Assembly: GCA_030615855.1 (NCBI GenBank)
Contig: JAUWYL010000003.1
Location: 6,236-70,235 of the forward strand
DNA length: 64,000 bases
Direction: 5' to 3'
Source of the DNA: a bacterium
GTDB lineage: Bacteria; UBP18; UBA7526
Shown one piece after another: positions 1,690 to 58,104 of the stretch. A program made the translations under genes and the position numbers. Position 1 is the first letter of the stretch, and each line of letters begins with the position of its first letter. Below the pieces are notes generated by a model. That model was not told the DNA's origin and searched no databases. It saw only the letters and a list, made by a program, of their open reading frames with translations.

Positions 1690-1960
1690 TAACACGGATT
1701 TTTTCTTATTGCTTATTGTGTGGGTAGAAACCACGGATCAGCACGGATTTAGGACAACGCGCTTCGCTTACCTCGTCTAAATAGGAACCTTTCGCTAATG
1801 CCCAAGAACCCTGTTTTATTCGCTCTGCTCAGAAAATGAGTCAAGTAAGTTGTCTCTTTTATTCGCTTCGCTCATAAAATAAAGAGTAAACAAGGTTCTG
1901 CCAAAAGCAGGTTCTTATTTATCCGTGTCTATCCGTGTTGTAATCCGTGTCTATCCGTGT
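1690..1960. repeat. Mixed repeat block between rpsR and ssb
   Basis: This gap holds ATCCGTG-family words at both ends (1690-1750 and 1925-1960). Between them lie several copies of the AAGAACCTG...CAGAACCTTGTTTTATTCGC repeat (called family A here) in both orientations (1760-1920). The same family A unit is found inside ispE and gspL and in the gaps at 16240-16420 and 38830-39005. No gene is seen. Confidence 0.75.
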
Positions 1961-2983: not shown

Positions 2984-4075
2984 GTGAAATTTAATGGTAA
3001 TTATATCTCCCTCTGCTACTCTGTAATCTTTCCCTTCTATTTTCAAAAGACCCTTCTCCCTTGCTTGGGATAGGGAACCTATCTGAATCAAATCGGAGTA
3101 GTTGATCACCTCCGCTTTAATGAATCCCTTCTCCATATCTGAATGTATTCTTCCCGCTGCTTCCCTGACGTTTCTCCCCCCTTCCAGAGTCCAAGCGCGA
3201 AGTTTCTTCCTCTCCAAGGTGAAGAAGGTAATAAGGCGTAGTAATCTATAACTTTCTCTAATCAACTTCTCTAATCCTATCTCCCCTATTCCCAGCTCAG
3301 CTCGAAACTGGGCGCGCTCCTCCTCTGGTAGTTCCTGCATCTCAGACTCTAATTGAGCACAGATTCCTATTGCATTATACTTCTTCAAATCTTCTGGAAC
3401 TTCCTCTTCCTCACCCAGATTGGCAACATAGAGGACCGGCTTCAGAGAGAGAAGATGGTATTCTTTCAAAACCTCTCTCTCTTTTTCATTTAATTCTGGT
3501 AGTTCTCCCTGCTTGAGCGATTCCCCCACCTTCTCAAGTAACCTAAGTTCTTCCTTTGCCTCAGGGTCCTTCTTTATTTTCTCTCTTCTTTTTTCAATGA
3601 TCTCCAGATCCGCCAAGGCGAGTTCCAGATTGATGATCTCTATATCTTTTATCGGATTGAGGCCTCCGGCCTGGGCTCCGCCCCAAGAGGGGCTCTGTCC
3701 CGGTGGGAGGGGCCTCTGGCCTGGAAGGTCGGGAGTGATGTGGGCAATATTGGGATCCGGGAAGCACCTCACGATATGGACTATGGCCTCCACTTCCCTT
3801 ATCTTTGCTAAGAACCGATTTCCCAGTCCTTGCCCCTTGCTCGCTCCTTCAACCAATCCCGCGATATCCAAGAACTTAATGGTGGTTGGGGTCACCTCGG
3901 ATGCCTCAATGAGCTCTTTTAACTTCGCCAATCTCTCATCCGGGACCTCCACCACCCCGATATTGGGCTCTATGGTAGTGAAGGGATATCTCTCAACCTT
4001 AGCATGTCCCCTGGTTAGGGCATTGAATAGGGTTGTCTTCCCCACATTGGGAAGTCCCACGATTCCGATCTGCAA
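2972..4075 (-). CDS. ychF: YchF/Obg-type GTPase (OLA1 family) with repeat-derived insertion
   Basis: This is a ribosome-associated P-loop NTPase. It shows G1 'GLPNVGKTT' near residue 7, G3 'DIAGLVEGASKGQGLGN' near 70, a coiled-coil insert in the middle, and a C-terminal TGS domain with 'IHSDMEKGFIKAEV'. I choose a TTG start (4073-4075), because GTGAGG lies six bases upstream and the protein then begins directly at the P-loop strand. An alternative in-frame start at 4099 adds eight residues. A Pro/Gly-rich stretch at about residues 113-139 ('GQRPLPPGQSPSWGG') is absent from the family and is encoded by a GC-rich palindromic repeat. Confidence 0.94.
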   Translation of the reverse strand: MQIGIVGLPNVGKTTLFNALTRGHAKVERYPFTTIEPNIGVVEVPDERLAKLKELIEASEVTPTTIKFLDIAGLVEGASKGQGLGNRFLAKIREVEAIVHIVRCFPDPNIAHITPDLPGQRPLPPGQSPSWGGAQAGGLNPIKDIEIINLELALADLEIIEKRREKIKKDPEAKEELRLLEKVGESLKQGELPELNEKEREVLKEYHLLSLKPVLYVANLGEEEEVPEDLKKYNAIGICAQLESEMQELPEEERAQFRAELGIGEIGLEKLIRESYRLLRLITFFTLERKKLRAWTLEGGRNVREAAGRIHSDMEKGFIKAEVINYSDLIQIGSLSQAREKGLLKIEGKDYRVAEGDIITIKFHLTR

Positions 4076-11515: not shown

Positions 11516-12424
11516 TTATGCAAGATGCTTAAAAGATTTCAAGAAAAAGACCTTTCTAAAGTCTTTCTTTATCTTCTTATAAATCTCTTCTGCTTTCTGG
11601 TAGTCTTCCGCCAGACCAAAGACTGAAGGGCCAGAGCCACTCATCAAAGCGCCGCAGGCACCCAATTCCAAGAGCCTTTTCTTTATCTTACCAATTTGGG
11701 GATGCCTGGGAATGACCACTTCCTCTAATCTATTATATAGGCTATTACCTATTTTCTTTACGTTGCCCGATTTCAGGGCAAACAAAATTATTTTAATACT
11801 TTGCGCTTCTTTTGTCAAGTCCTTCAGGTTCTTATTTCTGAGCGAAGCGAAGAAACAAGGTTCTGACGAAGTCAGGTTCTTATAGGCCCACTCTGTAGAG
11901 ACCTCAAAATCAGGGGAGATGAGGACAAAGTAAAGGGTTGGGCTCTGGGGAAGAGGTTTTAGCTTATCCCCCCTACCTTTTCCTAAAACCCTTCCTTTTC
12001 TCAAGAAGAAAGGAGCGTCTACCCCTATCTCTCGGGCAAGACCGGCTAGTTCTTGATAACTTAAACCCAAGTTCCACAACCTATTCAATCCCAGAAGGAC
12101 ACTCGCCCCATTACTTGACCCCCCTCCCAGGCCACTGGCTAGGGGTATTTTCTTATCGAGGGTAATCTGGACTCCTCTTTTGATCTTGAGTCTCTCTTTT
12201 AAGAGGGAGGCTGCCTGGTAAGCAAGGTTCTCTTTCCCTAAAGGCAGTTCAGGAAGATCGCTCTTAATTTCTATCTCTTTCTCTATCTCTTTCAGTGTGA
12301 GACTATCGAAGAGGTCTACCGTCTCTAGGATGGTCTCCACATTATGGTAGCCATCCCCTCTCTTTCCCAGGACCTCTAAAAAGAGATTTACCTTGGCTGG
12401 TGATTCAATCCTTAGCTCTTTCAA
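11516..12424 (-). CDS. ispE: 4-diphosphocytidyl-2-C-methyl-D-erythritol kinase with in-frame 16-residue insertion
   Basis: This GHMP kinase belongs to the MEP isoprenoid pathway. 'SPAKVNLFLEVLGKRGDGYH' is at the N terminus, the ATP loop 'PLASGLGGGSSNGA' lies near residue 92, and 'GSGPSVFGL' is near the end. The TTG start (12422-12424) lies inside the last codons of the TPR gene, with GAAAGGAA before it. After 'EWAYKNL' there is an extra 16-residue stretch ('TSSEPCFFASLRN' plus a second KNL). It is encoded by a family A repeat at 11834-11881, flanked by perfect 10-bp direct copies of AAGAACCTGA. Without it the protein reads as a normal IspE. Confidence 0.95.
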   Translation of the reverse strand: MKELRIESPAKVNLFLEVLGKRGDGYHNVETILETVDLFDSLTLKEIEKEIEIKSDLPELPLGKENLAYQAASLLKERLKIKRGVQITLDKKIPLASGLGGGSSNGASVLLGLNRLWNLGLSYQELAGLAREIGVDAPFFLRKGRVLGKGRGDKLKPLPQSPTLYFVLISPDFEVSTEWAYKNLTSSEPCFFASLRNKNLKDLTKEAQSIKIILFALKSGNVKKIGNSLYNRLEEVVIPRHPQIGKIKKRLLELGACGALMSGSGPSVFGLAEDYQKAEEIYKKIKKDFRKVFFLKSFKHLA

Positions 12425-16221: not shown

Positions 16222-16408
16222 GCTATGCTCCCGTAGTTTCTAAATTAGACGAGGCAAACGAAGTGCGTCGTCACAATTATAAATTGGACAAGGCAAACGA
16301 AGTGCGTTGTCATATCTTTCCATTACTTTCCTTCACTCTTGAAAGGGATAAGTAAGAGAGATAATCATGACTAAATAAGAACCTGACTTCGTCAGAACCT
16401 TGTTTTGC
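16222..16408. repeat. Family A and GAGGCAAACGAAGTGCG repeats upstream of pckG
   Basis: Two copies of the word AGGCAAACGAAGTGCGT(C/T)GTCA lie at 16249-16270 and 16292-16313. A family A unit follows at 16375-16410 (AAGAACCTGACTTCGTCAG...). No promoter or gene is recognised in this stretch. Confidence 0.65.
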
Positions 16409-16558
16409 TTATTGAAGTTCCGATACCTCAAAATAGCCACCAATGATCAGGATGGGAGCAGTAGTGAGGGAGCCTTTCTAGAGATAGAGAAATCCTAAAG
16501 CAGCGATCAAGAGGCCCAGTCCAAAAATCATTAGAGTTTTCTTAGTGTCTCTCTTCAC
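16409..16558 (-). pseudogene. Small membrane protein gene interrupted by an amber codon
   Basis: From a GTG at 16556-16558 the frame gives MKRDTKKTL followed by one hydrophobic helix ('MIFGLGLLIAALGFLYL'). A TAG follows at 16478-16480, then the same frame continues as 'KGSLTTAPILIIGGYF' to a TAA at 16409. A single-helix half followed by Gly-Ser and a second 'APIL..GY' helix is the shape of common two-helix small membrane proteins. The TAG therefore looks like a nonsense mutation. The last codons run into a family A repeat. A 26-residue peptide could still be made. Confidence 0.45.
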
Positions 16559-17544: not shown

Positions 17545-19544
17545 TATTCCTTCCTGTGTTTCACAGTCATTCTGAACTCCACGCTTCTCCCCCTTCTACT
17601 CAGATGGGCATCGCTCACCGCGACTTCCGTGAAATAGTCTGAGGCCTCAAGAACCCTTTTGAAGCGATCGACGAGAGAGAAGTCGGGGAGTGAAGTGCTT
17701 CCCCTTATTCTGGTCTCGTCCCAGTCAATGGAAAGGTCCTCTAAACTTATTTCCAAATCTTGGGGAGTGAGGGAGGAGATTTCTTTCAGGATAGTCAGAG
17801 AAGAAAATTCTCTTGGTGAGAGGGCAAGGTCTTCTTCTCTCTTCTCTAAACTGCTCTTCATCTGGACTAAGGGATCGACAATATTGGTGACTTCAGGAAA
17901 GGTTTTTTTGAAGACTAAGCGAATCTCCTTTTTTAGTTTCGCGCTTCTTTTATTCTTGAGGTAGAGATGGAGATAGAAGTCCAGAAGGCCCAGGAGAAAG
18001 ATGGAAAGAAGTAGGATGGTGGCTGGCTTAAGAAGGGGCCGGGCCTCCTCCAATCTCTTGATGAGGGGCTTCTCCTCCCGGATGAAATTAAGGGATGCCC
18101 TGGTCCTGGCCATTCCACGCAAGGCAATCCCCATCGCCTGGGGGAGGAGGGGTCTAGTTTTCTCTAAAGTAGAGCTATCTAGCGTACTAGAGATCTCCCT
18201 TAAGGAAGGAGTAAGAAGCTCCTTTAGGCGCAAGAAAAATGGTCTAGGGAGGGATAGCTTAAAGAAAGGATTGAAGAGAGAGGTTTCTATATTGAGGCTC
18301 TTCTGGAAGTATTCAACTATTTCGGGCAGGCGGGCACTTCCTCCAGTCAATAGGATTTTTTCTATACTCTTATCTGGGTAGAAAGCCAGGAAGGATGAGA
18401 AGGTATGCTCTATCTCTTTTATAATTTCATCCAGAACAGGCTCTATCGCCTTTAACTTCTCCTCATCGAGCTCTTCCCTCTGGGGCAGAGGCCCTTCTGG
18501 GCCGGAGGCCCTCTTTAACTTCTCCGCCTCTTTGAAGCTTACCCCAAATCTCTCTGCCAAAACCTGGCTGACGTTATCCCCGGCCTTAGGGATACTCCGA
18601 GTGAAGAAGAGTCTCCCCTCACTTATAATATCGATTATTGTCTGGCCTGCTCCAAGATTGATAAGGGCAACGATCTCTTTATCCTCTTTCAGGGCATAGA
18701 TATTGAAGAGGCTAGTACTATCAAGGTCCACAACCTCTGGCCTAAGCCCCGCCTTATCCAAAATCCTAAGGTGTTTTTCGATCACTTTCTTGTTGAAGGC
18801 AAAGGCTAAGACCAGGGTCCTGTCTGGGAGACGATCATCTACGATATAGAAATCAATAATCGCCTCTTCCAGGGGAAATGGGAGATGGGGCTCTAACTCA
18901 TACCTTATTACCTGGCGGATCTTCCTTGAACCCTTAAAGGGCAGGGAGAGCCTCTTAATTACAGAAGAGGAGGCAGGAAGGGAGGAGATTACTCTTTCTT
19001 TTTCTCCTTTAACCCCGCCCATTGGTAAAGGGGCGGGGCGAGCCTGGGAGAGGAGTTCGGCTATTGTTCGGACAATTATCTCCTCCTCTGCTTCACCCTT
19101 CTCTTCCCTGGGAATCTCCTTCTCCCAGAAGTTAAGGAGTCTCACTCCCCTTCTGGTCTTCAATAACCGGGTAACTTTTATACTATTTGTCCCGATATCT
19201 AGGCCCAGGGCCTCTTTCCCTTTTAGGAATTTCTTTACCTTTACTCCTTTTATTTTCGAACGAAGTGAGAAAACAAGGTTCTTGAGTGTAGCGAAAGGCT
19301 TTCTTATTTTATGAGCAAGGCGAATAAAACAAGGTTCTGTGAAGCAGGTTCTTATTTTGGCCAGACCCTTCTTTATCAGGGGGTTTAACCTATTCCGAAC
19401 GAAATGAGACATCTTCTGGAAGACGGAAAGAAGAAAGCCTTTTACACGAAGAAGAAGAGTCTTACTTTTAGTAAAAATAGTGCTCGTTAGTCTCTTCATC
19501 CTTCCCATCTTTTCTTTTAGATTGAGTTCCCGAATCTTAAACAT
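17544..19544 (-). CDS. gspL: Type II secretion protein GspL (PilM-like plus PilN-like fusion) with repeat insertions
   Basis: Residues 112-460 form an actin-like PilM/GspL cytoplasmic domain ('ALGLDIGTNSIKVTRLL', 'ALINLGAGQTIIDI', 'ILLTGGSARLPEIVEYF'). A TM helix near 500 ('TILLLSIFLLGLLDF') and a PilN-type periplasmic domain follow. Together they equal GspL, which links the GspE ATPase to the platform. The first 110 residues are unusual and very basic. Residues about 60-95 are encoded by two family A repeats (19255-19360). A second insertion near residue 345 ('ASGPEGPLPQREE') matches the GC-rich family C (18483-18521). Confidence 0.88.
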   Translation of the reverse strand: MFKIRELNLKEKMGRMKRLTSTIFTKSKTLLLRVKGFLLSVFQKMSHFVRNRLNPLIKKGLAKIRTCFTEPCFIRLAHKIRKPFATLKNLVFSLRSKIKGVKVKKFLKGKEALGLDIGTNSIKVTRLLKTRRGVRLLNFWEKEIPREEKGEAEEEIIVRTIAELLSQARPAPLPMGGVKGEKERVISSLPASSSVIKRLSLPFKGSRKIRQVIRYELEPHLPFPLEEAIIDFYIVDDRLPDRTLVLAFAFNKKVIEKHLRILDKAGLRPEVVDLDSTSLFNIYALKEDKEIVALINLGAGQTIIDIISEGRLFFTRSIPKAGDNVSQVLAERFGVSFKEAEKLKRASGPEGPLPQREELDEEKLKAIEPVLDEIIKEIEHTFSSFLAFYPDKSIEKILLTGGSARLPEIVEYFQKSLNIETSLFNPFFKLSLPRPFFLRLKELLTPSLREISSTLDSSTLEKTRPLLPQAMGIALRGMARTRASLNFIREEKPLIKRLEEARPLLKPATILLLSIFLLGLLDFYLHLYLKNKRSAKLKKEIRLVFKKTFPEVTNIVDPLVQMKSSLEKREEDLALSPREFSSLTILKEISSLTPQDLEISLEDLSIDWDETRIRGSTSLPDFSLVDRFKRVLEASDYFTEVAVSDAHLSRRGRSVEFRMTVKHRKE
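19255..19360. repeat. Family A repeats inside gspL
   Basis: Two adjacent units with the family A words AACAAGGTTCT and AGGTTCTTATTTT are read in frame as 'KIRTCFTEPCFIRLAHKIRK' and a following 'TLKNLVFSLRSKI' segment. Confidence 0.75.
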
Positions 19545-19564
19545 CGTGTCCCTTTGTCACTCGG

Positions 19565-19679
19565 TTAGGGTTAAGGTTAGGTTGTTAGTTTGGTCGTTGG
19601 GTTAGGTTGTTAGTCTTTTTAAACACCTAACCCTCACCAAACTACCATACCCACTACTTTACCCTAACCCAACTACTAA
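19565..19679. repeat. GGTTAGG / CCTAACC repeat cluster
   Basis: The 115 bases between the C25 protease and gspL consist of GGTTAGGTTGTTAG words followed by their inverse (ACCTAACCCTCACC), so the RNA could fold into a long imperfect hairpin. Confidence 0.6.
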
Positions 19680-22508
19680 TCACTTCAGTATTTCCTTCGC
19701 GGCCCAAACCACGGGTTTGAAATAGAACCTTACCATCTTCTTCAAGGCTTCTTTGTTCCTTATAAAGTTAGCAACTGGTGGGCTAATTCTGTTATAGAAG
19801 GAAATGAAGGCTCTGCCTGCTCTATTGGGCAAAAGATATCTATCCCTGAATTCACAGAGAATTTTCTCTTCCTCTGCCATCGGTGTTCCATAGGCGGCAG
19901 TAGCGATGAGGCAGCCGCCTCCGCCACCTCCTCCGCCTCCGCCTCCGGCAGGGGCGGCGATGGTGGTGAATTGATAGTAGGAACCACCATTATTATCTGT
20001 GGTCTGGTTCTCAACTGTGTCGCTTGAGGTAACCTGATAGTAGTATAGGGTCGAGGAACTTAAATTAGAGAGGGTAACGGAGTGAGAAGTGGTCTGGGTG
20101 GGATCCTGAGTAGTGGAACCAGGGGGAGTGGTAGTTCCATGCTTCACGATACTATCACTCGCTTCATCTGTGGTCCAGGTGATGGTGCAGGTAGTGGAAC
20201 CAGGAGAGGCGCTGACATTAGTTATTACGGGGTCCTGAGCATCTATGGTAGCGGTGTCGGTTCTCTCTCCAGGAGGGCTGGCATCAGTATAGGTAGCGGT
20301 TATGGTATCTCCGTGGGCTACCTGTAATTCTCCGGTACCCGGAGCCTCCGTAGTCAGGGTTACTGAGCCTTTGAAGCAATTTGTAGTCCCTCCCGTCTCT
20401 TCTAGGATTATGGTCTCCGAATCACCAGTAAGAAAACTGGTCATAACTACTTCATCAGTGGTAAAACCAATGTCTGGGGTAGTATCTAAATTAGAATCCC
20501 AGAGGGTGATGTTTACTTTGGCAGAACCATTATAAACCCCGGCATCTAAATTGATTAAACCAGTAGGAACAGGTATATGGAAAGGGGTCTCGGGGTCACC
20601 GAAGAGGTTGAGAGCAAAGTAGCACCACCTTATCGCTCCTGTGCTGTCTACAGATCCATCGTTATCTTCTTTTGAATCTTGGTTAATCCTGCCCAGATTG
20701 GTTATTCCCTCATCGAATAAAGCATCCCAGAACTGGCGGTCGAACCTCTGAGAGGCTCCATTGGTGCTTCCCTGGACATACCAGCCATACCTTGAATTCC
20801 CCACAAAGGCGAAGGCACCATTGGCTTCGGTGGTGAAGTGTTCCAGGATAGAGTCATAATTATAATAATAACTACTGCTGGTACTACGATTGTCGAAGGC
20901 TCCGCAGTAACAGCCCTGGGTATAGCCAAAGAAGTAATCGGTATTGGTCAAGGCATCGACATCCGCGTTGTACATCTTCATATCATAGTTTACATTAGCA
21001 TGGCCCAGATGGTTTATAACGTGAAGGCCATTATTGATATATCCGGTGAGGGTGCTCTTCGACCAAAAAGCATCGTAATCATAGAGGGTATTGAGATCGC
21101 TGAAGAAGGAACAGTCAGTGAAGCCTTTGGTGGTATAGTAATTAATGGAGCCAGTTCGAACCTCTTCTTTATAATCCCTTCCCCAGGTTGGGTAACTATC
21201 CAGTTTTTCAGCGACCATATAAGCGGTGTGGAGATAATCAGTAGTAGCATCCTCATAGGCCAAGGTCTTCTTGACGAAGTTGGAGAGTTCTGTAGTAGAA
21301 TCAACGGGCGCTCTTCCCACATAGACCTCAGCGTAGAGGTCGATTTCTCCCCCGTCTACGCCATCGTTCGATTCCCCATATATTCCATCAGCATCGTTGT
21401 CAAACGTTCCATCGAGACAGGCATAGTACATATCGGCCGGAATATCGTTGTCTGCTGGTGTAGGAGGAGAACTTGACACATAGCCATAGAATCCACGATG
21501 GGGAATGATGGGTTCTGCCTCCCTCTCGCCATCGGCACTGCCACCTCCGTCACCGTCCCCAACCAAGAGGATATAATCGGTAGCCCAACCACCTTCAACC
21601 ACAGGTTTATTGGCATCGAAGATGAAGTTTCGAATCTTGGTCTGATTGTCCGTTCCTCCATCAGGACGGGTTCCGCTATAGTTGGCATATATCCATTCTG
21701 TGGTTACGATATTGGTAGTGATTCCGCGATTGTTCTTACTCTGAGTTAAATCCTGGAGATCATAGGTTCCGGAGTAGTTCTTGAAAGTATCATTGGTAAT
21801 GATGACATAATCGTAGGGACCTCCTGACAAGAGAGGGCCACCGTCTAAGGCGGTCTTAATGGCCCGGGAGTAGCTCTTTGTATCTTGAGGATTATTTACT
21901 ATCTTCCCGATTACTCTTTCATCCTTGGCTAAACCACGGTATAAGGGAGGAGCAGTTATTTCGCGGACGGGAATAGTCTCTACCTCAATGGTCATATTTT
22001 TATAATAGGAGAGCCTTTTCTCTTGAGGGATATATTCCATAGGATGGAGGTTGACGGGTAGGATGCGATAACCCCTCTTATTCTGTACGGACTTTGGAGT
22101 GTGGAGTTTGCCCGGGAAAGGATTCCTGGATTGATATATTCTCTTATCCGGTAGAGTCTTAGATACTTTCCCTCTATAACTCAAGGGCACCGGCCTCTGT
22201 CCCGGTTCGACGTTATAGGTGCCGGAGAGTTCTATCTTCTGTGCAGGAATAATATTTATTCCCTTGACCTTTTGGCCAAAGGGGATGAGGACTTTAACTG
22301 TCTTTATGGGAAGGACGGGCTCTCCAGGCTCGCCTATAGTGGATGAGCCCTTCATACTTATCCTGTGGTATTCACCAACCCTGTTAATCTGGGGAGAGGG
22401 GAAGGTTATTTCTATTCTGATGGAATTATTCCTTGCCTGCAAATAATAAGTTCCACTACTTAGAAGTAGCAGACTGATAATTATTACTAGGATGTTAACT
22501 ATTTTCAC
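19680..22508 (-). CDS. Secreted gingipain-like (C25) cysteine protease with FN3 and CFI-box-CTERM tail
   Basis: The domains run as follows: signal peptide (1-22); prodomain (about 25-220, with 'GEPGEPVLPIKTVKVLIPFG'); C25 catalytic region (about 230-680); a beta-rich segment; an FN3-like domain (about 775-850); an eleven-Gly linker; and a CFI-box-CTERM domain starting 'CLIATAAYGTPMAEE'. The likely catalytic His is in 'INHLGHAN' and Cys in 'GCYCGAFD', matching the C25 dyad pattern. It starts at a GTG four bases after the upstream prodomain gene. Its place among gsp genes suggests it is a T2SS substrate. The CFI-box may act as a sorting or anchoring signal, but its processing is unknown. Confidence 0.88.
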   Translation of the reverse strand: MKIVNILVIIISLLLLSSGTYYLQARNNSIRIEITFPSPQINRVGEYHRISMKGSSTIGEPGEPVLPIKTVKVLIPFGQKVKGINIIPAQKIELSGTYNVEPGQRPVPLSYRGKVSKTLPDKRIYQSRNPFPGKLHTPKSVQNKRGYRILPVNLHPMEYIPQEKRLSYYKNMTIEVETIPVREITAPPLYRGLAKDERVIGKIVNNPQDTKSYSRAIKTALDGGPLLSGGPYDYVIITNDTFKNYSGTYDLQDLTQSKNNRGITTNIVTTEWIYANYSGTRPDGGTDNQTKIRNFIFDANKPVVEGGWATDYILLVGDGDGGGSADGEREAEPIIPHRGFYGYVSSSPPTPADNDIPADMYYACLDGTFDNDADGIYGESNDGVDGGEIDLYAEVYVGRAPVDSTTELSNFVKKTLAYEDATTDYLHTAYMVAEKLDSYPTWGRDYKEEVRTGSINYYTTKGFTDCSFFSDLNTLYDYDAFWSKSTLTGYINNGLHVINHLGHANVNYDMKMYNADVDALTNTDYFFGYTQGCYCGAFDNRSTSSSYYYNYDSILEHFTTEANGAFAFVGNSRYGWYVQGSTNGASQRFDRQFWDALFDEGITNLGRINQDSKEDNDGSVDSTGAIRWCYFALNLFGDPETPFHIPVPTGLINLDAGVYNGSAKVNITLWDSNLDTTPDIGFTTDEVVMTSFLTGDSETIILEETGGTTNCFKGSVTLTTEAPGTGELQVAHGDTITATYTDASPPGERTDTATIDAQDPVITNVSASPGSTTCTITWTTDEASDSIVKHGTTTPPGSTTQDPTQTTSHSVTLSNLSSSTLYYYQVTSSDTVENQTTDNNGGSYYQFTTIAAPAGGGGGGGGGGGCLIATAAYGTPMAEEEKILCEFRDRYLLPNRAGRAFISFYNRISPPVANFIRNKEALKKMVRFYFKPVVWAAKEILK

Positions 22509-29480: not shown

Positions 29481-31268
29481 TTAGACTACTATTTCCTGGG
29501 TGACGCGCAGGACTTCTTCTAAGGTGGTGATTCCAGATAAGATCTTCTCCACCCCTGCCTGCTGTAAGGTGGTCATCCCTTTGGAGACGGCCTTCTGCTT
29601 TATAAGGTTGGTCTCTTTCTTATTGGTAATCATATCCCTTATCTCATCATCTATTACTAATAGTTCGAAGATCCCGGTCCTTCCCCAATATCCAGTATCG
29701 AGACAAAAAGGACAACCCTTTCCTCTCCAGAGAACTCCCTCCGGGCCAGAGGCCCTCTGAGCCGGCGGCCCTTCCCTCCGGGGCAGAGCCCCCTCTCTCC
29801 GAGCCAGAGGCTCTTCCGAGCCGGAGGCTGGGGCGGAGCCTTTAAGGTCAGAAGGTTTCAATCCCACCTCTGCTAAGGACTCTGGCGTTGGAGTATAGGA
29901 CTCCTTGCATTTTGGGCAGATGAGGCGAACTAATCTCTGGGCCATGATCCCGATTATTGAAGAAGAGGCAAGATAGGGCTCCACCCCCATCTCGAGTAGT
30001 CTGGTAATGGCTCCGGCAGCATCATTGGTATGGAGAGTAGAGAAGACCAAGTGGCCGGTTAAAGCAGCGTGGATGGCAATCTCTGCGGTCTCGAAGTCTC
30101 GGATCTCACCCACCATCATAACATCCGGGTCCTGCCTCACAATAGACCTTAATCCAGAAGCAAAGGTTAAACCGATCTTGGGCTTTACCTGTATCTGTCC
30201 GATCCCCTCTAACTGATACTCAATGGGATCCTCCACAGTAATGATGTTTTTGTCCGGGGTATTAATGCGGTCTAAAGCACTATACAGAGTGGTCGTCTTA
30301 CCTGACCCTGTTGGCCCAGTATTCAGTATGATACCATGGGAACTTTTGATTAATTTGAGGAGCTTTTCCAGGTTCTTTTGAGAGAAGCCTAAGTTCTCCA
30401 ATCTGAAGGACATACTCGACTTATCCAATAACCTCATCACTACCCTCTCCCCAAAGAAGGTGGGAATTACTGAGACTCGGATATCAATGTCCTTTCCCGC
30501 CATCTTGATACTTATTCTTCCATCCTGGGGAAGCCTTCTCTCAGCAATATTTAAGCTGGCCATTACTTTTACCCGAGAGACGATGGCCGGTTGATGACTA
30601 CGCTCATTACGCAGAATATCATATAGCACGCCATCTACTCTATATCGTATCCTCAGTTCCTTCTCAAAGGGCTCGATGTGGATATCACTGGCCCTCTTCT
30701 TTAAGGCCTCAATAATGAGGGAGTCAACGAACTTAATAATGGGTGGTTTGGAAGCCAAGTCCAATAAATCCTCTGCCCCTTCAAATGTTCCTTCCCCTTT
30801 TCCAAAATCAACCTTCTCAAACTCCTTTATGATTTCAGTGGCGCTCTCTCCCTCCTGGGCACCATAACCCCTTTCAATCCCTTTGAGAATCTCCTCTTCC
30901 GGAACGATGACCATCCTTAGAGGATGGGTCAGGATAAGGCGGAGATTATCAATGGGACCAGGGTCCAAAGGATCAGAGGTAGCCACCCTCTCTCCTTTCA
31001 GGGGAAGAAGGCAACACCTCTTGAGGAAAGAATGGGAGAGTTCAGAGAGTCCCTCAGAATCGATATCCTCATCTGAGAGATGGTCCAAGTAGGGGACATG
31101 AAGTTTTTCACTCAAGACCCGCAGAATCTCTTCCTGAGTAAGAAACTTTAGTTGTAAGAGAACCTTATCTAATCTCTCATTGGTCCTTCCCTGTAAGTCT
31201 AAAGCCTCTTTTAATTCTTCCTTAGTTATCTTCTTATCCTTCAGGAGGATCTCACCCAGATTCTCCAT
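29481..31268 (-). CDS. gspE: Type II secretion ATPase GspE with insertion in the zinc-finger loop
   Basis: An N-terminal MshEN-type domain (residues 1-150) is followed by the secretion ATPase core. Walker A is 'GPTGSGKTTTLYSALD' (about 317), with 'EDPIEYQ' (Asp/Glu box), Walker B 'MMVGEIRDFETAEIA' and His box 'TLHTNDAAGAITRL'. The C-type zinc module has CPKC and later CPFC. Between the two Cys pairs lies an extra stretch of about 35 residues ('APASGSEEPLARREGALP' and more). It is encoded by GC-rich palindromic family C DNA (29733-29843). The gene starts two bases after gspD. Confidence 0.96.
   Translation of the reverse strand: MENLGEILLKDKKITKEELKEALDLQGRTNERLDKVLLQLKFLTQEEILRVLSEKLHVPYLDHLSDEDIDSEGLSELSHSFLKRCCLLPLKGERVATSDPLDPGPIDNLRLILTHPLRMVIVPEEEILKGIERGYGAQEGESATEIIKEFEKVDFGKGEGTFEGAEDLLDLASKPPIIKFVDSLIIEALKKRASDIHIEPFEKELRIRYRVDGVLYDILRNERSHQPAIVSRVKVMASLNIAERRLPQDGRISIKMAGKDIDIRVSVIPTFFGERVVMRLLDKSSMSFRLENLGFSQKNLEKLLKLIKSSHGIILNTGPTGSGKTTTLYSALDRINTPDKNIITVEDPIEYQLEGIGQIQVKPKIGLTFASGLRSIVRQDPDVMMVGEIRDFETAEIAIHAALTGHLVFSTLHTNDAAGAITRLLEMGVEPYLASSSIIGIMAQRLVRLICPKCKESYTPTPESLAEVGLKPSDLKGSAPASGSEEPLARREGALPRREGPPAQRASGPEGVLWRGKGCPFCLDTGYWGRTGIFELLVIDDEIRDMITNKKETNLIKQKAVSKGMTTLQQAGVEKILSGITTLEEVLRVTQEIVV
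29733..29843. repeat. GC-rich palindromic repeat (family C) inside gspE
   Basis: Alternating words such as GGCCAGAGGCC, GAGCCAGAGGCTC and GGGGCAGAGCCCC can pair with each other. Similar DNA is inside ychF (3660-3739) and gspL (18483-18521), and in gaps at 34690-34795 and 57470-57520. Confidence 0.75.
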
Positions 31269-34254: not shown

Positions 34255-34565
34255 TGGCTCCGGAGGAGGGATTCGAACCCCCGACCAAGTGGTTACAGAT
34301 TCTCTCCAAATTTCTTTAGAGTCTGGACTCTCTCTTTCCCGTGTCCCATCTGGCTCTGCCAGACAGGATTTAGGGAGCGGGTGTATAGTCTCTGCACGTT
34401 CCCTCCGAAGCTTTAGCCTAGGAGGGCTTCGCTCAGGATTACCTTACCCGCCGATGAGACGGGGTTAGGCTTCCCTGAATTAGCCCGCTTTTTCAATCCG
34501 ACTTTCGACGGAAAGCTGCAACTTTCTGGTTACAGCCACCTGCGCTACCACTGCGCTACTCCGGA
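34255..34565 (-). tRNA. tRNA-Asn (GUU) interrupted by a group I intron
   Basis: Exon 1 is 34532-34565 and exon 2 is 34255-34295. Joined, they give a 75-base tRNA with encoded CCA. The acceptor is TCCGGAG/CTCCGGA, the D arm GCGC...GCGC, the anticodon arm GGTGG-CTGTTAA-CCACT and the T arm GGGGG-TTCGAAT-CCCTC. The anticodon GTT is split between its second and third bases. Reading the unspliced gene gives a six-base anticodon loop, so splicing is needed. A consensus promoter lies just upstream. Confidence 0.92.
34296..34531 (-). ncRNA. Group I intron in the tRNA-Asn anticodon loop
   Basis: The 236-base insertion follows a U (exon end ...CTGT) and ends in G, the group I rule. P1 forms between exon GCTGT and the internal guide GCAGC, with the required U.G pair at the splice site. 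AAC/GTT extends P1. Core elements resemble R (GTGCAGAGACTA) and S (AAGAGAGAGTCC), whose GACT/AGTC pair makes P7, and AATTCAGGGAAGCCTAA resembles P/Q. No endonuclease ORF is present. Confidence 0.88.
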
Positions 34566-34580
34566 GCATCCTTAAATAAC

Positions 34581-37394: not shown

Positions 37395-38804
37395 TTACTC
37401 AATAGTAAAAGAACTTTTAAGAAAGCGGTAGGTCTCATCATCCATTCCCGGGACATCCTTCACTTCCCTCATACCCTTGAATGGACCATGGCTCTCTCTA
37501 TAATCGATAATAGAACGAGCCATCCCCGGCCCAATGGCCGGCATGGCGGATAACTCCTGAAAGGTAACGGTATTGATATCCATCTTTTCTACAGTGATGA
37601 GATCTTTAAGTTTCTCATAAGTCTTAGATCCGATACGGGGGACATTCTGGATCTCAATGATACTTCTAAACGGACGATATTCGATGATGCGCCTCGCAGT
37701 CTTGGGTCCGATGCCTGGGAGGTTCTCCAACTCTTTCTGAGAAGCGATGTTAATATTTACCTTTCGGGACACCCTCTTCCTCACCTCTGGCCTTTCTCCC
37801 GGAGGAACCTCACCAACAGTAATCAAGGGCCTCAGATTCTCCAAGGTCTTTGGCCCGATCCCCCTGGCCTTGGTCAATTCATCGATAGAGGCATAGGGTC
37901 GGGCATCTATGATGGCCCGGGCTTTCACCGGTCCAATCCCGGGAAGGGTCTGAATCTCTGAAGGAGAGGCGGTGTTGATATCAATCCTTGCTCTAACTGG
38001 AGGTGCTCTTTTTACAACCGGGACCTCCTTCTCGAGAGGGGCCTCGGGGGCTGGCTCTGCAACCTCACCAACAGTAACCAGGGGTCTCAACCTCTCCAGG
38101 GTCTTTGGTCCGATCCCTCTGACCCTGATCAGTCCATCAATGGTAGCATAGGGACGGGCATCTATGATGGCCCGGGCTTTCACCGGACCGATCCCGGGAA
38201 GGGTCTGAATCTGAGAGGCGCTTGCCGTATTGATATTGACCAAATAAGAAGGCGCGGTATTCCTCTCTGGTCTGACTTCTTCCTTCTTCGCCAAACTCTC
38301 CCGAGCAAAATTTACCTCTTTCTGGGGTAATATCCGCATCTGAGGAACCCTTACCACTTCTCCAGGATAGATGAGATCCGGGTTCTTGATCCTGTTATAT
38401 AAAGCCAGATTAGGAAAGGCTGAAGCTATCCCCAGATACCTTTTAGCAATCTTACTCAAGGTATCACCTTCCCTAACATAATGGGTTATTATTTCAATCC
38501 CCACTCCCGGAACCTGGAATGTTGCCTTTTCTAACTCAGGCTCCCTCTCCGGTCCAACAGTAACCAGGGGTCTTAACCTCTCCAGGGTCTTTGGTCCGAT
38601 CCCTCTGACCCTGATCAGTTCATCAATGGTAGCATAGGGACGGGTATCTATGATGGCCTGGGCCTTTACCGGACCGATCCCGGGAAGGGTCTGAATCTGA
38701 GAGGCGCTTGCCGTATTGATATCTATTTTCTCCTGACCCAGCCCGGTCTGGGTCACAATAAGCAAAAGAAGGAAAATTAAAAGAACCAAGCCCTTTCTCA
38801 TCAT
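37395..38804 (-). CDS. Secreted protein with five ComEA-type HhH modules and a LysM domain
   Basis: A signal peptide (1-23) is followed by HhH module 1 (about 25-85, 'DINTASASQIQTLPGIGPVK'), LysM (about 105-155, 'THYVREGDTLSKIAKRYLG', peptidoglycan binding), and HhH modules 2-5 (about 190, 270, 345 and 405) separated by Pro/Glu linkers. Modules 1-3 are nearly identical, indicating recent duplication. ComEA uses this fold to bind incoming dsDNA in the periplasm. LysM would tether the protein to the wall. GGAG lies just before two adjacent ATGs (38804, 38801). Confidence 0.88.
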   Translation of the reverse strand: MMRKGLVLLIFLLLLIVTQTGLGQEKIDINTASASQIQTLPGIGPVKAQAIIDTRPYATIDELIRVRGIGPKTLERLRPLVTVGPEREPELEKATFQVPGVGIEIITHYVREGDTLSKIAKRYLGIASAFPNLALYNRIKNPDLIYPGEVVRVPQMRILPQKEVNFARESLAKKEEVRPERNTAPSYLVNINTASASQIQTLPGIGPVKARAIIDARPYATIDGLIRVRGIGPKTLERLRPLVTVGEVAEPAPEAPLEKEVPVVKRAPPVRARIDINTASPSEIQTLPGIGPVKARAIIDARPYASIDELTKARGIGPKTLENLRPLITVGEVPPGERPEVRKRVSRKVNINIASQKELENLPGIGPKTARRIIEYRPFRSIIEIQNVPRIGSKTYEKLKDLITVEKMDINTVTFQELSAMPAIGPGMARSIIDYRESHGPFKGMREVKDVPGMDDETYRFLKSSFTIE

Positions 38805-39233: not shown

Positions 39234-41168
39234 TCAAGGAGTCTCTTCGGGAGGGAGAATAAGAATCTCTGTCCCCGGTGGTTCCTCTTCTGGCTCCTCA
39301 ACCTTCTCAGGCTCTATGGTAATTAGATCCTTCAGAACCTCATATCTCTTGGCCCCGATGCCCGGGACGCTCCGTAGATCTTCAATCCTTTCATAGGGAC
39401 GGTGGGCGATGATGGCCAAGGCCTTTACTGGACCGATCCCGGGAAGGGTCTCCAATTGAGTCCGAGAAGCGGTATTGATATTGATTTTCTCTACGACCCT
39501 CTCTGGTTTGACTGGAACCTCGACCTCTTCCTCAGGGATGGACACCTCTTCCTCTATTTCTATAATCTGGATATCTGAGAGATCCTTCGGTCTTATCTCC
39601 AATTCATTAGCATAAGAACCGATCTGACCACTGACTTGAATACTCGTTCCTTGAACCAGGCTTTCCCTCTCTGGTATGCTCTCATATAGGTCCTTCCAGA
39701 TAACGACATTTATGGAGCCTGTTCCATCGTCTATCTTTAATGTTCTACCCTTCTCCTCTTTGAAGACCCTGACAGATATTATCTTCCCTTTAATGGTCAC
39801 CCTTTGACCGATGGAGGCCTCGGTTATCTTACCGATAGGAACCAGTTCCGTCTCCAGAATCTGGATGTCTGAGGGTTTCTTCAGTTTTATCTCGAATTTA
39901 TCCTTGTAAGATGCGACTCGACCACTGACCTGAATAGGCATTCCTTGAACCAGGCTTTGTCTATAGAGTAGGCTCTCGTATAGTTCCTTCCAGATAAGGA
40001 CATCTATGGAGCCTGTCCCATCGTTTAGCTCTAAAGTACGACCTTTCTCCTTTTTAAAGATCCTGACAGACATTATTTTTCCTTTAAGGGTTACCTTCTG
40101 ACCGATGGAGGCCTCAGTTATGCTGCTGATGGGAACCACTTTTTCCTCAGGAACAGGTACCACTTCTGGCTTCTCAATCTCTTCTGGCTTCTCAACAGGG
40201 ACTTCTTTAACCGGAACCTCTTCAACTGGGACTTCTTTAACAGGAACCTCTTCCACAGGAACTTCCTCAATCTCCACTATAGGAGGCTTTTCTTCCTTCC
40301 TTTTCTTTGGGCCCCCGAAACGAAAGGTCAGAGTGCCCAGATGGGTCTCATCGAGGTTATGGTGGGGAAGATAAGCATAATCAAAGGAGAGGAATCTATT
40401 CCTCAATCCCCATCCTACCATCCATCTGCCGGGATTATTAGCCACCCCGGAGCGAAGGAAGAGATACTTCAGCCAGTGGTATTCCAGGCCTAATCTGAAC
40501 TCGTCATCCTCCTCTTTCTCCTGCTTCTCATAGTGATAATCTACTGCCAGGATTAAGTCGGGGTCTGGTCGATAGGCGATCCCTCCCGCATACCTCTGGG
40601 GGAGGTCGTCACCGATATGGGGGGTATTAACGTTACCTCCGAATAAGCCAAGGCTCAACTTCCCGTCCAGGAGTTTATATAAGAGTCCTAAGTCCCCTCC
40701 ATAATCGAACTCCTTACCTACAGTCTCGATCTCGAGACGGAGGTACTTGGCATTTCCCCCAAGATAGATATCCTGTTTCTCAAAGGTGAACTTCCTTCCA
40801 TAGGAGAAGATATAGGCATCTTCTCTTAACTTCCTGTGGCCATAATTAGTCGTGGCCAATCCAATGGTACCCAGCCTCCCCATAGGCAGAGCGAGATTTC
40901 CTAACTTATACTCTAAGTCCTTCTCCCCATAGAGCATGGTATAGCTTCCAGATAATTCTATCATTTTCAATTGTCCCAGACCCGCCGGATTGAAGTAGAT
41001 GGCACTTGAATCATCTGCCACAGCAGTAAAAGCCCCTCCCATACCCCAGGCACGGGCAGAAGAGGGCCTCTCCTCAAATATAGCCCAAGCCGAGACAGTG
41101 AACAGTGAACAGTGAACAGTGAACAGTGATAAAAAAAATAAAATAAAAAATAATCGCTTAACCTTCAT
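39234..41168 (-). CDS. PorV/UPF0164-like outer-membrane barrel with two OB folds and an HhH module
   Basis: A signal peptide (1-29) is followed by a UPF0164/PorV-type barrel (30-285, 'GMGGAFTAVADDSSAIYFNPAGL') and a 'VPVEE/VPVKE' repeat linker (about 300-335). Two OB folds follow (about 350-430 and 440-520, 'TLKGKIMSVRIFKKEKGRT', 'NDGTGSIDVLIWK'). A ComEA-type HhH (about 555-615) ends the protein before an acidic tail. The OB unit is closely related to the one in the 59525 gene. The order implies a DNA- or RNA-binding arm hanging from the outer membrane. Part of the signal peptide is encoded by TTCACTG repeats (41098-41130). Confidence 0.85.
   Translation of the reverse strand: MKVKRLFFILFFLSLFTVHCSLFTVSAWAIFEERPSSARAWGMGGAFTAVADDSSAIYFNPAGLGQLKMIELSGSYTMLYGEKDLEYKLGNLALPMGRLGTIGLATTNYGHRKLREDAYIFSYGRKFTFEKQDIYLGGNAKYLRLEIETVGKEFDYGGDLGLLYKLLDGKLSLGLFGGNVNTPHIGDDLPQRYAGGIAYRPDPDLILAVDYHYEKQEKEEDDEFRLGLEYHWLKYLFLRSGVANNPGRWMVGWGLRNRFLSFDYAYLPHHNLDETHLGTLTFRFGGPKKRKEEKPPIVEIEEVPVEEVPVKEVPVEEVPVKEVPVEKPEEIEKPEVVPVPEEKVVPISSITEASIGQKVTLKGKIMSVRIFKKEKGRTLELNDGTGSIDVLIWKELYESLLYRQSLVQGMPIQVSGRVASYKDKFEIKLKKPSDIQILETELVPIGKITEASIGQRVTIKGKIISVRVFKEEKGRTLKIDDGTGSINVVIWKDLYESIPERESLVQGTSIQVSGQIGSYANELEIRPKDLSDIQIIEIEEEVSIPEEEVEVPVKPERVVEKININTASRTQLETLPGIGPVKALAIIAHRPYERIEDLRSVPGIGAKRYEVLKDLITIEPEKVEEPEEEPPGTEILILPPEETP
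41098..41130. repeat. GTGAACA tandem repeat inside a signal-peptide coding region
   Basis: Four to five tandem GTGAACA words are read on the minus strand as 'SLFTVHCSLFTV'. Confidence 0.85.
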
Positions 41169-42169: not shown

Positions 42170-45100
42170 TTATTTTCGTATTAACTTATTCGCTCCCCAA
42201 ACCAATGGCTTCAATCCTGCTCTAACTACTGCCTTGAGTGGTTCTTTATCTCGGATGAAGTCCGCAATCGGTGGCGAAATTTTACAGTAAGTAAGAACAA
42301 ATGCCCGACCTAAGGGATTAGTGAGCAGATGCTGGTCTCGGAACTGCCGCAAAGCCATTATTTCAGGAGGACAGTTTAAAAAGTTGGTTAGTTGGTTAGT
42401 TTTATCCGTGCTAATCCGTGATTTTAATCCGTGCCTATCCGTGCAACTGCTGTAAGCAGCAGTAGCAATAAAGCATCCTCCACTCCCTCCACCACTCAGA
42501 GACTTGCCCACTGTGACCGTAGTCGTTGCCTCAGTGCTCGAGTTTCCATCTTCAGCAATGGCCTTGATATAAATGGTGTAGTAACCTATAGGAACAGAGT
42601 CGCCAGAACTGTTCTTCCCATCCCATTTTGTAGAGAAACTATCTGCAATATAATACTTATCTTCCCCTAAGGTTTTTACCACCCTTCCCCTTCCATCGAG
42701 GGCCTGAATGGTGACCTCAGACTCCTTATTAAGAGTGAAGGAGATCTTGGTATGTCTCCGATTGAGGTCGCTTCCATCCGATAGGAAGGGATCTTCAGAG
42801 ACTCCTAAACCCCTGATTCCCACTCCAGAAGGCATATCCGCATTATTTACCTTCCCTCTGGTAGGAGAGGAACAGACGCTCCAGTCACTATTTGCATTGG
42901 TATCACTTGAATCAGCGTCACGGGCGATGGAGTCATTAGCATCGACTGTAGTGCTATTAAAACAGTCAGATTCTGCCAGAGAAGCCCCAGCAATCTTCCA
43001 TTGTTCAGGATCAGCATCTACTAATGCTTGGACATCTGCTTCCTCACCAGAACCCCACGTCCCACTTTGATCTGCCCAGCAAACAGCATCCTCAATATTC
43101 CCCAATCCATCCTTGAAGATTACCTGTTCATCTGTAGAGGTCAACCCAGTATCATGGGCCCAGATATTGATGATTCCATCCGAACCAGCAGTGAGTTCAT
43201 CCATCCAGTAACTCATCCCATTAGTAAAGATCTCAATATTTCCCCTTCCTGTAGGAGCCCCGGTCCGTGAACCAGTTCCTGTGCAGTAGTAGGGAATACT
43301 TTTAGCCGACAGACGATCCAAACATTCAGTAGTCGGATGGTTATAGGGGTTGGAGCCGGTAGAGATGACGGCCTTATCCGGATAGACATAGGTGAGGAAG
43401 TTACTTGAGGTGGCATATCTAGCGCCATGATGGCCTACTTTTAAGATATCGCTCGTTAATCCTATCCCATACTTACTGATCAGGTTCTCCTCCACCTCGA
43501 ATCGGGGATCATTATCATGGCAGGCAGAGGATTCCGCATCACCAGTGAGCATAAAGGAGACATTCCCGTAGGTAAGGTAAATAACAATGGAACTATTATT
43601 CTTATAATCGGTTCCTTCCTCTTCAGTTGCTCCTGGCCAAGGACTGGTAGCATGGGCATTGAGCACCTTGGCAGTAATGTTATAGTCTTCATCCCAGGTA
43701 TAGGTCTGGCCAACGGTGGGAACGATACCCGGAATATCATTGACATCTGAGATGGTTGGGTAACCCAACTCATTCTTTACCGCGGTAACAAAGGCATCGG
43801 TATAATAACTCTCTGGCTGGCCAGAGAGCCAGATGGCCTCTACTGTCTTATTATTTAAAACATCTGTCAGGTCACCATAATGGTCGCTATCCGCATGGGT
43901 AGCGACCATACGATGGACAGTAGTAGAGACACCCACTTTATCAAGATAGGAATCAACGATTTCCTTATTTGGGTTTCCTCCATCGATTAAGATATTTTCT
44001 CCTCCCGGAGTCTGAACAAGAATGGAGTCCCCTTGTCCTACATCAATGAAGGTGACGGTCATGCAGCCTGAGGCTGGCTGGAGGACTAAATATTCCCCGG
44101 TCTTTATTGTTGTTCCCTTGGCGATGGTCTTTATTGTTCCATCATCTTCAAAGTAGCATTCCCCGATATCTACTCCGCTTCCATCGCTGGTTCCATCAGC
44201 CTCACAATATAACTCTACCCAGTCCTTGCTGCCTGAAGCATTAAACGATACCTCATTTATCTTAATGCTTACATCCAATTCTAAGGAAGAGGGGTTCTTC
44301 TTTCCCTTGGTAGGGGTAGTAATAAGATTCCAATCGCTCTCCTTATGGGTATCCGTTGCTCCAGAAGCATTATCTCTTCCTAAAGACTTTCCCTTTGCCC
44401 CACTCGTCCAGTTGGCAGACTGGCCTTCCTGAGTCTCATTACTGTAGGTATCCTCATCCCCGGCATCGCCAATCCATTGACGGGGACTGAGACTATCATC
44501 CGCTATCCTGTTGAAGGCCGTACGCTGGGTGCCTGCCCAGGTGCCATCCCTCTTGGCCAATGATACAGCATCGATGATGTTTCCCGAAGGATCCTCAAGG
44601 ATAATGACATTATCCGTTCCGGTAAGACCAGAATCCGTGGAATAGAAGTCACGATAGCCATTCCCATTGGTATCGCTATCCACCTCATCCGCAGTAGGGT
44701 CCTCCGGGTCATCCCTGAGACGAAGGACGATATACTCATCATCAGACATAGTATAATCTGGAAAGGTCTTGATATAGGCGCTTCTTTCCAAGACTCTCCA
44801 GGAACCGATATTCTGGGTTGTTCCCGAGACATTATGGAACTCAATCCACTCTGGGGTATCCTTGGTAGCAATCTCATTAATCAATATACTGCCTGGGTCT
44901 CCCTCATCTGGAGCAGTAGTATTTGTTGCTTTCGGTGACCCTCTTTCTGTGGCCCCGGCATCCCAGTTAGTAGTTCCTTCTTCATTGGCAGTATACCAGT
45001 TCTTGGCCTGCGTACCATCCCCGGGGGTGCTGCGACGCTCCATAGAATATTTCTTATCATTGTCACCTGCTAAAGGTGTTGAACTATCACCAGCGGTATC

Positions 45101-46438
45101 ATAAAGGATATCGCCATCCGTGTAGAGTTTTATCTGAAGAGTGCTATTGGATAATACTACATCAGTATCTATTACATTTGGAGTAACACTATCTTCTATT
45201 CTGGAGTTAGCTGCATCAAAGTTAGAAATGAGGAAGTAATCATCACCAGCCGGATCACCCGTGGCCTTTATGGTTCCAGAAAGGGTGACTTGCATAGGAG
45301 CTTCAGCTCCAGCAGAAAATTTAGTGAGATACCAGTTGGTCAAATCAATGTCTGAACTGCTGGTATTCCTCAGTTCAATCCATTCATCGGAACTGCTAAG
45401 CGTACTCCCTGTCCACATCAATTCGTTGATCACTACCGGCGCTCCTCCGTCATAATAGAGAGCAGTATCTGTGCGGTCAATAGAGGGGGCTGGTTCGGCA
45501 TCGGCATAGGTAGCGGTAATGGTAGAGCCATCGGCCACCTTAATCACATTATTGGCATCATTACTAGCAGTTGTAGAAACTCCTAACTCTGGCTCTGGAG
45601 ATTGAATGTTAAATATTCCGGTATCGTTTCCCGTTTCGGTTAGGGTAATACTTATCGTTACTGGGTCAGAGGTAGTGGAGATTATGCTGACCGTAAACGA
45701 CTGCTTACTTCCCGAATCGGTATTGCGATCATTATCAGTGACCGTAATATCGGAAGTTTGAGAAGTGCTGCTAAAGATTCCTCTATCAATATCTATGCTC
45801 CCCACATAGTTGCCGCTTCCATTTGCTGCTCCCGGAGTTCCCAATTCTGTAGCCCCGGAATCCCAGTTCAGGGAGGTCGTAGCAGTATACCAGTTCTCTG
45901 ATACCGTTCCATCACCCGGTGTAGTATTACGAGACATAGAGTATTTATTGGCATTATCCCCAGCAAATGGGGTTCCACTAGCATCATCAGCGGTATCGAT
46001 GATCGTAGTGGTTTCACCTGCATAGGGGCCATCATAGAGTTTTATCTGTAGAGCAGTATTGGCTAAAGAGACATCAGTATCTACCACATCTGGTATGACG
46101 TTCAACTTTGAACTACCACTGGTCTCGGCATAATTGGAGATGAGGAAGTATCCATTGGCTGGGATGGTGCCAGAGGAGATGGTGAGCATCAACGTCTCTG
46201 CGCCACTACTATACTTAGTAATATCCCAATTACTCAGATTGATGGGTGAACTGGTCATATTCCTCAGTTCGATCCATTCATCATAAGTACTGGCATTACT
46301 CCCCATCCACATCAACTCATTGATCACCACATCCCCGGGATCTGCTCCCCAGGCTCGCCCGCTCCCACAGAGAGCTATACTAATAATAAGGAATAGCATT
46401 AATGTTAAGTTCTTAGAAAATATTTTTCTTATCTTCAT
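42170..46438 (-). CDS. Secreted lamin-tail-domain protein with nested metallo-beta-lactamase domain and CFI-box-CTERM
   Basis: A signal peptide is followed by several lamin-tail domains ('VVINELMWMGSNAS', 'VVINELMWTGSTLSSS', 'ILINEIATKDTPEWIEFH', 'SIKINEVSFNASGSKDWVEL'). A ComEC-like metallo-beta-lactamase domain (about 805-1060) shows 'IDVGQGDSILVQTPGGENIL', 'ATHADSDHYGD' and 'VGHHGARY'. It sits inside the fourth lamin-tail domain, which resumes as 'IFKDGLGNIEDAVCW'. An FlgD-like Ig domain and a CFI-box-CTERM domain finish the protein. A repeat-encoded insert of about 26 residues interrupts the CFI box. A phosphodiesterase or nuclease role for the MBL domain is inferred. Confidence 0.85.
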   Translation of the reverse strand: MKIRKIFSKNLTLMLFLIISIALCGSGRAWGADPGDVVINELMWMGSNASTYDEWIELRNMTSSPINLSNWDITKYSSGAETLMLTISSGTIPANGYFLISNYAETSGSSKLNVIPDVVDTDVSLANTALQIKLYDGPYAGETTTIIDTADDASGTPFAGDNANKYSMSRNTTPGDGTVSENWYTATTSLNWDSGATELGTPGAANGSGNYVGSIDIDRGIFSSTSQTSDITVTDNDRNTDSGSKQSFTVSIISTTSDPVTISITLTETGNDTGIFNIQSPEPELGVSTTASNDANNVIKVADGSTITATYADAEPAPSIDRTDTALYYDGGAPVVINELMWTGSTLSSSDEWIELRNTSSSDIDLTNWYLTKFSAGAEAPMQVTLSGTIKATGDPAGDDYFLISNFDAANSRIEDSVTPNVIDTDVVLSNSTLQIKLYTDGDILYDTAGDSSTPLAGDNDKKYSMERRSTPGDGTQAKNWYTANEEGTTNWDAGATERGSPKATNTTAPDEGDPGSILINEIATKDTPEWIEFHNVSGTTQNIGSWRVLERSAYIKTFPDYTMSDDEYIVLRLRDDPEDPTADEVDSDTNGNGYRDFYSTDSGLTGTDNVIILEDPSGNIIDAVSLAKRDGTWAGTQRTAFNRIADDSLSPRQWIGDAGDEDTYSNETQEGQSANWTSGAKGKSLGRDNASGATDTHKESDWNLITTPTKGKKNPSSLELDVSIKINEVSFNASGSKDWVELYCEADGTSDGSGVDIGECYFEDDGTIKTIAKGTTIKTGEYLVLQPASGCMTVTFIDVGQGDSILVQTPGGENILIDGGNPNKEIVDSYLDKVGVSTTVHRMVATHADSDHYGDLTDVLNNKTVEAIWLSGQPESYYTDAFVTAVKNELGYPTISDVNDIPGIVPTVGQTYTWDEDYNITAKVLNAHATSPWPGATEEEGTDYKNNSSIVIYLTYGNVSFMLTGDAESSACHDNDPRFEVEENLISKYGIGLTSDILKVGHHGARYATSSNFLTYVYPDKAVISTGSNPYNHPTTECLDRLSAKSIPYYCTGTGSRTGAPTGRGNIEIFTNGMSYWMDELTAGSDGIINIWAHDTGLTSTDEQVIFKDGLGNIEDAVCWADQSGTWGSGEEADVQALVDADPEQWKIAGASLAESDCFNSTTVDANDSIARDADSSDTNANSDWSVCSSPTRGKVNNADMPSGVGIRGLGVSEDPFLSDGSDLNRRHTKISFTLNKESEVTIQALDGRGRVVKTLGEDKYYIADSFSTKWDGKNSSGDSVPIGYYTIYIKAIAEDGNSSTEATTTVTVGKSLSGGGSGGCFIATAAYSSCTDRHGLKSRISTDKTNQLTNFLNCPPEIMALRQFRDQHLLTNPLGRAFVLTYCKISPPIADFIRDKEPLKAVVRAGLKPLVWGANKLIRK
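42380..42455. repeat. ATCCGTG-family and GGTTAGTT repeats inside the CFI box of the 1422-aa protein
   Basis: Tandem ATCCGTG words and a TTGGTTAGTTGGTTAGTT stretch are translated as 'CTDRHGLKSRISTDKTNQLT' between 'ATAAYSS' and 'MALRQFRDQ'. Confidence 0.85.
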
Positions 46439-54539: not shown

Positions 54540-54554
54540 CTTTACCTCCTTTTA

Positions 54555-58080: not shown

Positions 58081-58104
58081 TCTTCTCACCCCCCTTCTAA
58101 ACAC

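Follow-up and report, generated by a model that had tools for sequence, protein, structure and literature searches.

A Short Palindromic Repeat in Frame in ispE, and Small Families of Similar Elements in Core Genes of an Uncultured Bacterial Lineage

The ispE Gene and Its Insert

The window, by which we mean the whole stretch of 64,000 nucleotides that was analysed, corresponds to contig C44 of a 1.375-Mb draft genome which is about 94% complete. Its ispE gene is recognised by the model TIGR00154 with 253 bits (cut-off 138.7) and contains a 48-bp unit of a repeat which we call family A. The features of the locus are:

11516-12424, minus strand: ispE, host of the insert (302 aa)
11824-11871, minus strand: 48-bp family A insert in ispE, absent from relatives; it could equally be placed anywhere within a shift of 12 bp, as far as 11883
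11872-11883, minus strand: left copy of the 12-bp word ATAAGAACCTGA
11824-11835, minus strand: right copy of the same word
11863-11875, minus strand: hairpin 1 of the insert (CTGACTTCGTCAG), from the fold; stem kept and sequence varying among copies
11835-11855, minus strand: hairpin 2 of the insert (TTTCT...AGAAA), from the fold and from comparison among copies

A first-pass annotation, made from the sequence alone, described an in-frame repeat unit which adds 16 codons to ispE and recreates KNL at its end. The translation, EWAYKNL-TSSEPCFFASLRNKNL-KDLTKE, confirms this: there are 16 extra codons and the last three are KNL. The direct repeat of 10 bp which it placed at both edges of the unit is present, AAGAACCTGA being found on the minus strand at 11824-11833 and 11872-11881 with a spacing of 48 bp, but the word extends further and its true length is 12 bp.

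The five nearest relatives comprise G001 and G002, which are species of the window genome's own genus, and G003-G005, which share its family. The ispE genes of G001, G002, G004 and G005 are without the 48-bp insert, and the empty site of G004 reads GCCTACAAGAACCTGAAGGGG, with a single AAGAACCTGA. Alignment of IspE from relatives had been proposed as the test of an insertion, and its outcome supports one; the 16 residues are absent from all 21 other IspE proteins aligned, distant ones included. Our best explanation is that a family A copy would have entered the ispE gene of the window lineage after its split from the sister species.

The AlphaFold model of the protein has a mean pLDDT of 91.7, the exceptions being a disordered loop at residues 188-197, which falls in the insert and has a pLDDT below 50, and the C-terminal end. 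The predicted structure matches solved IspE structures; in the model the enzyme is intact apart from the insert, which forms the disordered loop. A scan of the insert region with Rfam matched no known structured RNA.

Structure and Distribution of Family A

A BLAST search of the 1.375-Mb genome with the ispE insert gives 39 matches at E<=10, of which the ten best after the insert itself have E values from 4e-15 to 4e-9; the early observation that the unit occurs elsewhere thus holds for the genome as a whole. In the window the sequence AACAAGGTTCTG is found seven times with at most one mismatch, where 0.27 are expected. Three further sites in the window are:

16375-16435, plus strand: intergenic family A unit, 58 bp after its ATA, with the same hairpin 1 and another second half
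1888-1918, minus strand: intergenic family A copy, hairpin 1 module
19252-19356, minus strand: two adjoining family A units (48 + 54 bp) close to the N-terminus of pilM, both in frame; absent from pilM of G001 and G002

The copy at 16375 had been taken for the same unit as the one in ispE. This is exact for the first 31 bp (16375-16405), which make up the hairpin 1 module, and fails for the second half, which is a different module. Elsewhere in the genome the rsmG gene (L023:999-1790, minus strand) carries in frame a 63-bp family A unit bounded by ATA.

A family A unit consists, from ATA to ATA, of AGAACCT, hairpin 1, AGAACCTTG, hairpin 2 and the final ATA, and is 45-63 bp long. ATA flanks every complete unit, including those in ychF of G002 and in carB of the unrelated genome G188. 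Hairpin 1 appears as GACTTCGTC, GCTTCGC, GCGCTACGCGC, CCGATTTCATCGG and other variants. Its outer stem has on average 2.0 pairs against 0.32 in shuffled letters, and the stem of hairpin 2 has 4.6 against 2.0. Since in both hairpins the sequence varies while pairing is retained, we conclude that the stems are kept. Stems were compared between copies because the folding energy of single copies, which is only weakly better than that of shuffles (one family B unit excepted), is weak evidence alone.

Family A is present in all six related genomes and also in two genomes outside the lineage, among 193 genomes searched. In the copies outside the lineage the first module is identical or nearly identical, the second module is different, and ATA stands at the ends; a copy of G188 lies in frame in carB. 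These copies may reflect either horizontal spread or a mobiliser in common. The same carB gene (L194:3393-6725, minus strand) has a second odd stretch, KKLDTGHWTLDTALL, which looks like a tandem-repeat insert.

Families B and C and Other Inserts

Comparison of the window genes with the syntenic stretches of the five relatives revealed further inserts, and core genes of the six related genomes were seen to hold tiny palindromic elements in frame, which fall into at least three families (A, B and C). The empty sites shown directly are those in ispE, ychF, pilM, gspE, gspJ and rpoB. Family B has a 39-bp and a 33-bp form. Family C is a GC-rich hairpin of 33 bp which covaries, the stem being preserved among copies, and 19 of the 24 fetched loci (one of the 19, L170, is doubtful) are inside open frames of at least 190 aa. 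Hosts identified by family models are rpoB, gyrA, recR, tsaD, truA, dapA, trpC, aspartate kinase, dnaX, argJ, a histidine kinase, a trypsin/PDZ (DegP-like) protease, a penicillin-binding protein and others. The remaining inserts in the window are:

3662-3727, minus strand: family C in ychF, 66 bp made up of two 33-bp units, one nested in the other; absent from G001-G005
18477-18509, minus strand: 33-bp family C insert in pilM; absent from G001, G002 and G003
18998-19024, minus strand: 27-bp in-frame insert in pilM, of uncertain family, which together with adjoining host sequence forms a palindrome; not present in G001 or G003
29741-29839, minus strand: 99-bp insert in gspE of three 33-bp family C units, one common to G001, one nested and one adjacent

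A near-identical composite of the ychF insert is found in recR, and G002 has a 54-bp insert at a different site of ychF. A further in-frame insert was seen in gspJ, and the rpoB gene of G001 has a 33-bp insert which the window genome's own rpoB does not have. The ispE gene has been hit in other relatives as well: G003 has a 51-bp insert near the site used in the window genome, and G002 (72 bp) and G005 (39 bp) have inserts at one site. In G002 the 33-bp form of family B is nested inside the 39-bp form, and each also occurs alone elsewhere, the 33-bp form in the window genome, close to where gyrB begins. Inserts are found in both orientations and in several frames, and they differ between sister species.

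Although G002 and G005 belong to different genera, one family B element occupies an identical position of ispE in both, while closer relatives are without it. In the 5' part of the gene G001 is 0.93 identical to G005, which is higher than its identity to its own genus, and the pairwise identities along ispE suggest recombination between lineages. The common site may come from an allele spread by recombination or from repeated insertion at a favoured site. A gene named RqcH-like on sequence likeness, without a model hit, shows two different inserts at one place: a family C element in G001 and a family B-like one in G004.

At three rpoB loci (L186 in G001:C39, L187 in G000:C29 and L188 in G004:C55) rpoB and rpoC appear fused, the frame over rpoB being 2627-2677 aa long; in L186 this frame also includes the rpoC motif NADFDGD.

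Reading Frame and Junctions

The length is a multiple of three in all 12 inserts analysed. For ATA-bounded family A units this is true of 6 of 6 inside genes against 9 of 35 elsewhere (Fisher P = 0.0011), an excess such as would be expected if insertions were random and purifying selection then acted on them.

Added up over the 12 junctions, direct repeats come to 40 bp where 8.3 are expected, and to 28 bp against 7.3 (P = 5e-5) when ispE is left out; the 12-bp match at ispE has P = 0.0005. Their lengths range from 0 to 12 bp, those of families B and C from 0 to 6 bp, with almost none in family B. When junctions were checked for a duplication containing TA, ATA was found at both ends in family A, and not in families B and C. 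The first-pass annotation had offered target duplication or a recombination footprint as the origin of the ispE repeat. Plain target duplication did not hold up: the word was already present in the host, as seen in G004, and in other copies it is also part of the conserved left end of the element. In ispE, pilM and rpoB alike, the word that is repeated can be traced to the host before insertion and also to the usual end of the element. The flanking repeat is therefore most readily explained by a target that matches the element end, and ATA would be the minimum of such a match in family A. A target duplication of ATA plus a coincidence at ispE is possible but less likely.

Other Features of the Window

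Several features are recorded here in their own right. Rfam identifies a group I intron (81.9 bits) at 34304-34541 on the minus strand. Its flanks, about 34255-34570, resemble tRNA halves (GCTCCGG...CCGGAGCCA, loop CTGTAAC, perhaps anticodon GTA), and ARAGORN does not report such a tRNA. A repeat of about 115 bp at 19552-19691 has dozens of matches in the relatives' genomes and is unrelated to family A. Proteins with repeated segments resembling helix-hairpin-helix (INTASASQIQTLPGIGPVKA; repeat families D1 and D2) are encoded at 37395-38804, 39234-41168, 57592-58104 and 59525-61261. Three large secreted-looking proteins (19680-22508, 42170-46438 and 47203-50487) have in common a C-terminal motif like CFIATAAY...RFRDxxLLxNxxGRAF, perhaps a sorting signal. 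Dispersed arrays of short repeats of the CACGGATTA type (D5) lie between genes at 333-385, 54542-54594, 57165-57217 and 58087-58139.

Origin and Mobility of the Elements

The empty sites, the recurrence throughout the genome, the ATA bounds and the stems kept despite sequence change lead us to regard family A as a mobile repeat. We hold with considerable confidence that what entered ispE was one copy of a mobile repeat which is short, non-autonomous and able to form hairpins, and that families A-C are found in frame through selective survival. Nested units which are also found alone and the excess of junction repeats speak for this explanation. Insertion would be fairly indiscriminate, favouring sites which share a short word with the end of the element, and a copy in a gene would persist only if its length is a multiple of three, if it is free of stops in the frame used and if it falls in a permissive loop, so that the protein works. 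The copying step is the least certain. It could be carried out by some nuclease or transposase acting on the hairpin, or proceed by microhomology-driven template switching into single-stranded DNA.

Candidates for a mobiliser were sought as three domains in the draft genomes. Y1_Tnp (PF01797) was found in none of six, while the control was positive in five known genomes; DDE_3 (PF13358), the sole DDE family searched, was likewise found in none of six, and the RVT_1 (reverse transcriptase) profile was not found in the related drafts. Carriage of the elements by viruses was considered and rejected: exact patterns of families A and C gave no match in 2.9 million viral contigs, and no viral relative of ispE was found.

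The strongest competitor is a classical MITE moved by a DDE transposase of the IS630/Tc1 type with a fixed TA or ATA target duplication, the longer word at ispE being a coincidence. Such a transposase would produce the ATA that bounds each complete family A unit on both sides, and several known bacterial MITEs end in TA (PMC2229807); the result for DDE_3, the B and C junction repeats of varying length and the low probability of the ispE match make us think it rather unlikely all the same. REP sequences moved by a RAYT (a Y1 tyrosine transposase) would account for the size, the hairpin shape and the occasional in-frame location, as in intragenic REPs (PMC3733652). The Y1_Tnp result speaks against them, as does the lack of a GTAG/CGTC terminal tag in the consensuses of A and C and in the sequences of B, and we judge this origin improbable. 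If no mobile element were involved, slippage of replication or a local tandem duplication within ispE would leave a direct repeat around the insert, which is seen; this origin is rejected as next to impossible, because the insert has dispersed copies at many loci across the genome and its relatives and, the word itself excepted, is not copied from ispE.

Two further explanations concern the recurrence of the inserts and the data themselves. The inserts could have been retained for some use, either of the protein segment or of a hairpin in RNA or DNA, for which their recurrence in core genes, the preserved stems and the repeated hits at two different ispE sites, and probably at one RqcH-like site, would speak. 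Against usefulness stand the two orientations, the several frames, the differences between sister species and the predicted disorder of the ispE insert, and we give this explanation little credence. The GenBank records that match are bins assembled from metagenomes, and misassembly can arise from repeats. An assembly artefact is nevertheless very improbable: the inserts are multiples of three with both gene flanks intact, and they occupy different sites in several separately assembled genomes, one gspE unit being common to G001 and the window genome.

Going further than the mobile-repeat explanation, we tentatively suggest, as something possible and hardly yet probable, a class of mini-hairpins of 33-60 bp which have no recognised transposase, spread by word matching, cross phyla and have coding DNA as an ordinary habitat since fixed lengths divisible by three and nearly stop-free frames make them harmless there.

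Comparison with Known Systems

Literature searches on such elements in candidate phyla found nothing relevant, and a 2024 review calls a similar process in other prokaryotes merely "conceivable" (PMC10969869). The palindromic elements of Rickettsia and Wolbachia (RPE and WPE) comprise several families per genome, lie between genes and in frame in conserved genes, at exposed sites, and are tolerated by the protein (PMC3767692, PMC2229807, PMC10969869). The elements described here are also palindromic and found in both kinds of location, and an insert in an exposed, tolerated part is predicted by the model made for IspE, the one protein modelled. The likeness to the Rickettsia elements which was noticed at the outset has been upheld as one of behaviour. 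RPEs are about 100-150 bp long and belong to Rickettsiales, whereas our elements are mostly 33-63 bp, occur in an unrelated lineage and have ATA or short-word junctions.

Intragenic REPs of the GTAG/CGTC superfamilies are hairpins of 20-40 bp in many copies, single or combined, some of them in frame, e.g., in uvrA (PMC3733652). Families A, B and C form similar hairpins but have no GTAG/CGTC end tag, and no RAYT was found. The TA-ended MITEs (Correia/NEMIS, ERIC and RUP) are small, non-autonomous and sometimes fused in frame to genes (PMC2229807); compared with these our elements are shorter and without long terminal inverted repeats, and DDE_3 was not found.

We file the elements as behaving like RPE/WPE and intragenic REPs yet as members of neither family; their size, consensus and junction pattern differ, and no REP tag or RAYT was found. 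In-frame palindromic elements have hitherto been treated as a speciality of Rickettsiales and of a few REP-rich bacteria. Here several very small families in an uncultured lineage reach rpoB, gyrA, gyrB and dnaX, and the sister species provide empty sites, nested insertions and junctions by which the movement of such elements and the gain of peptides in essential proteins become testable by comparison.
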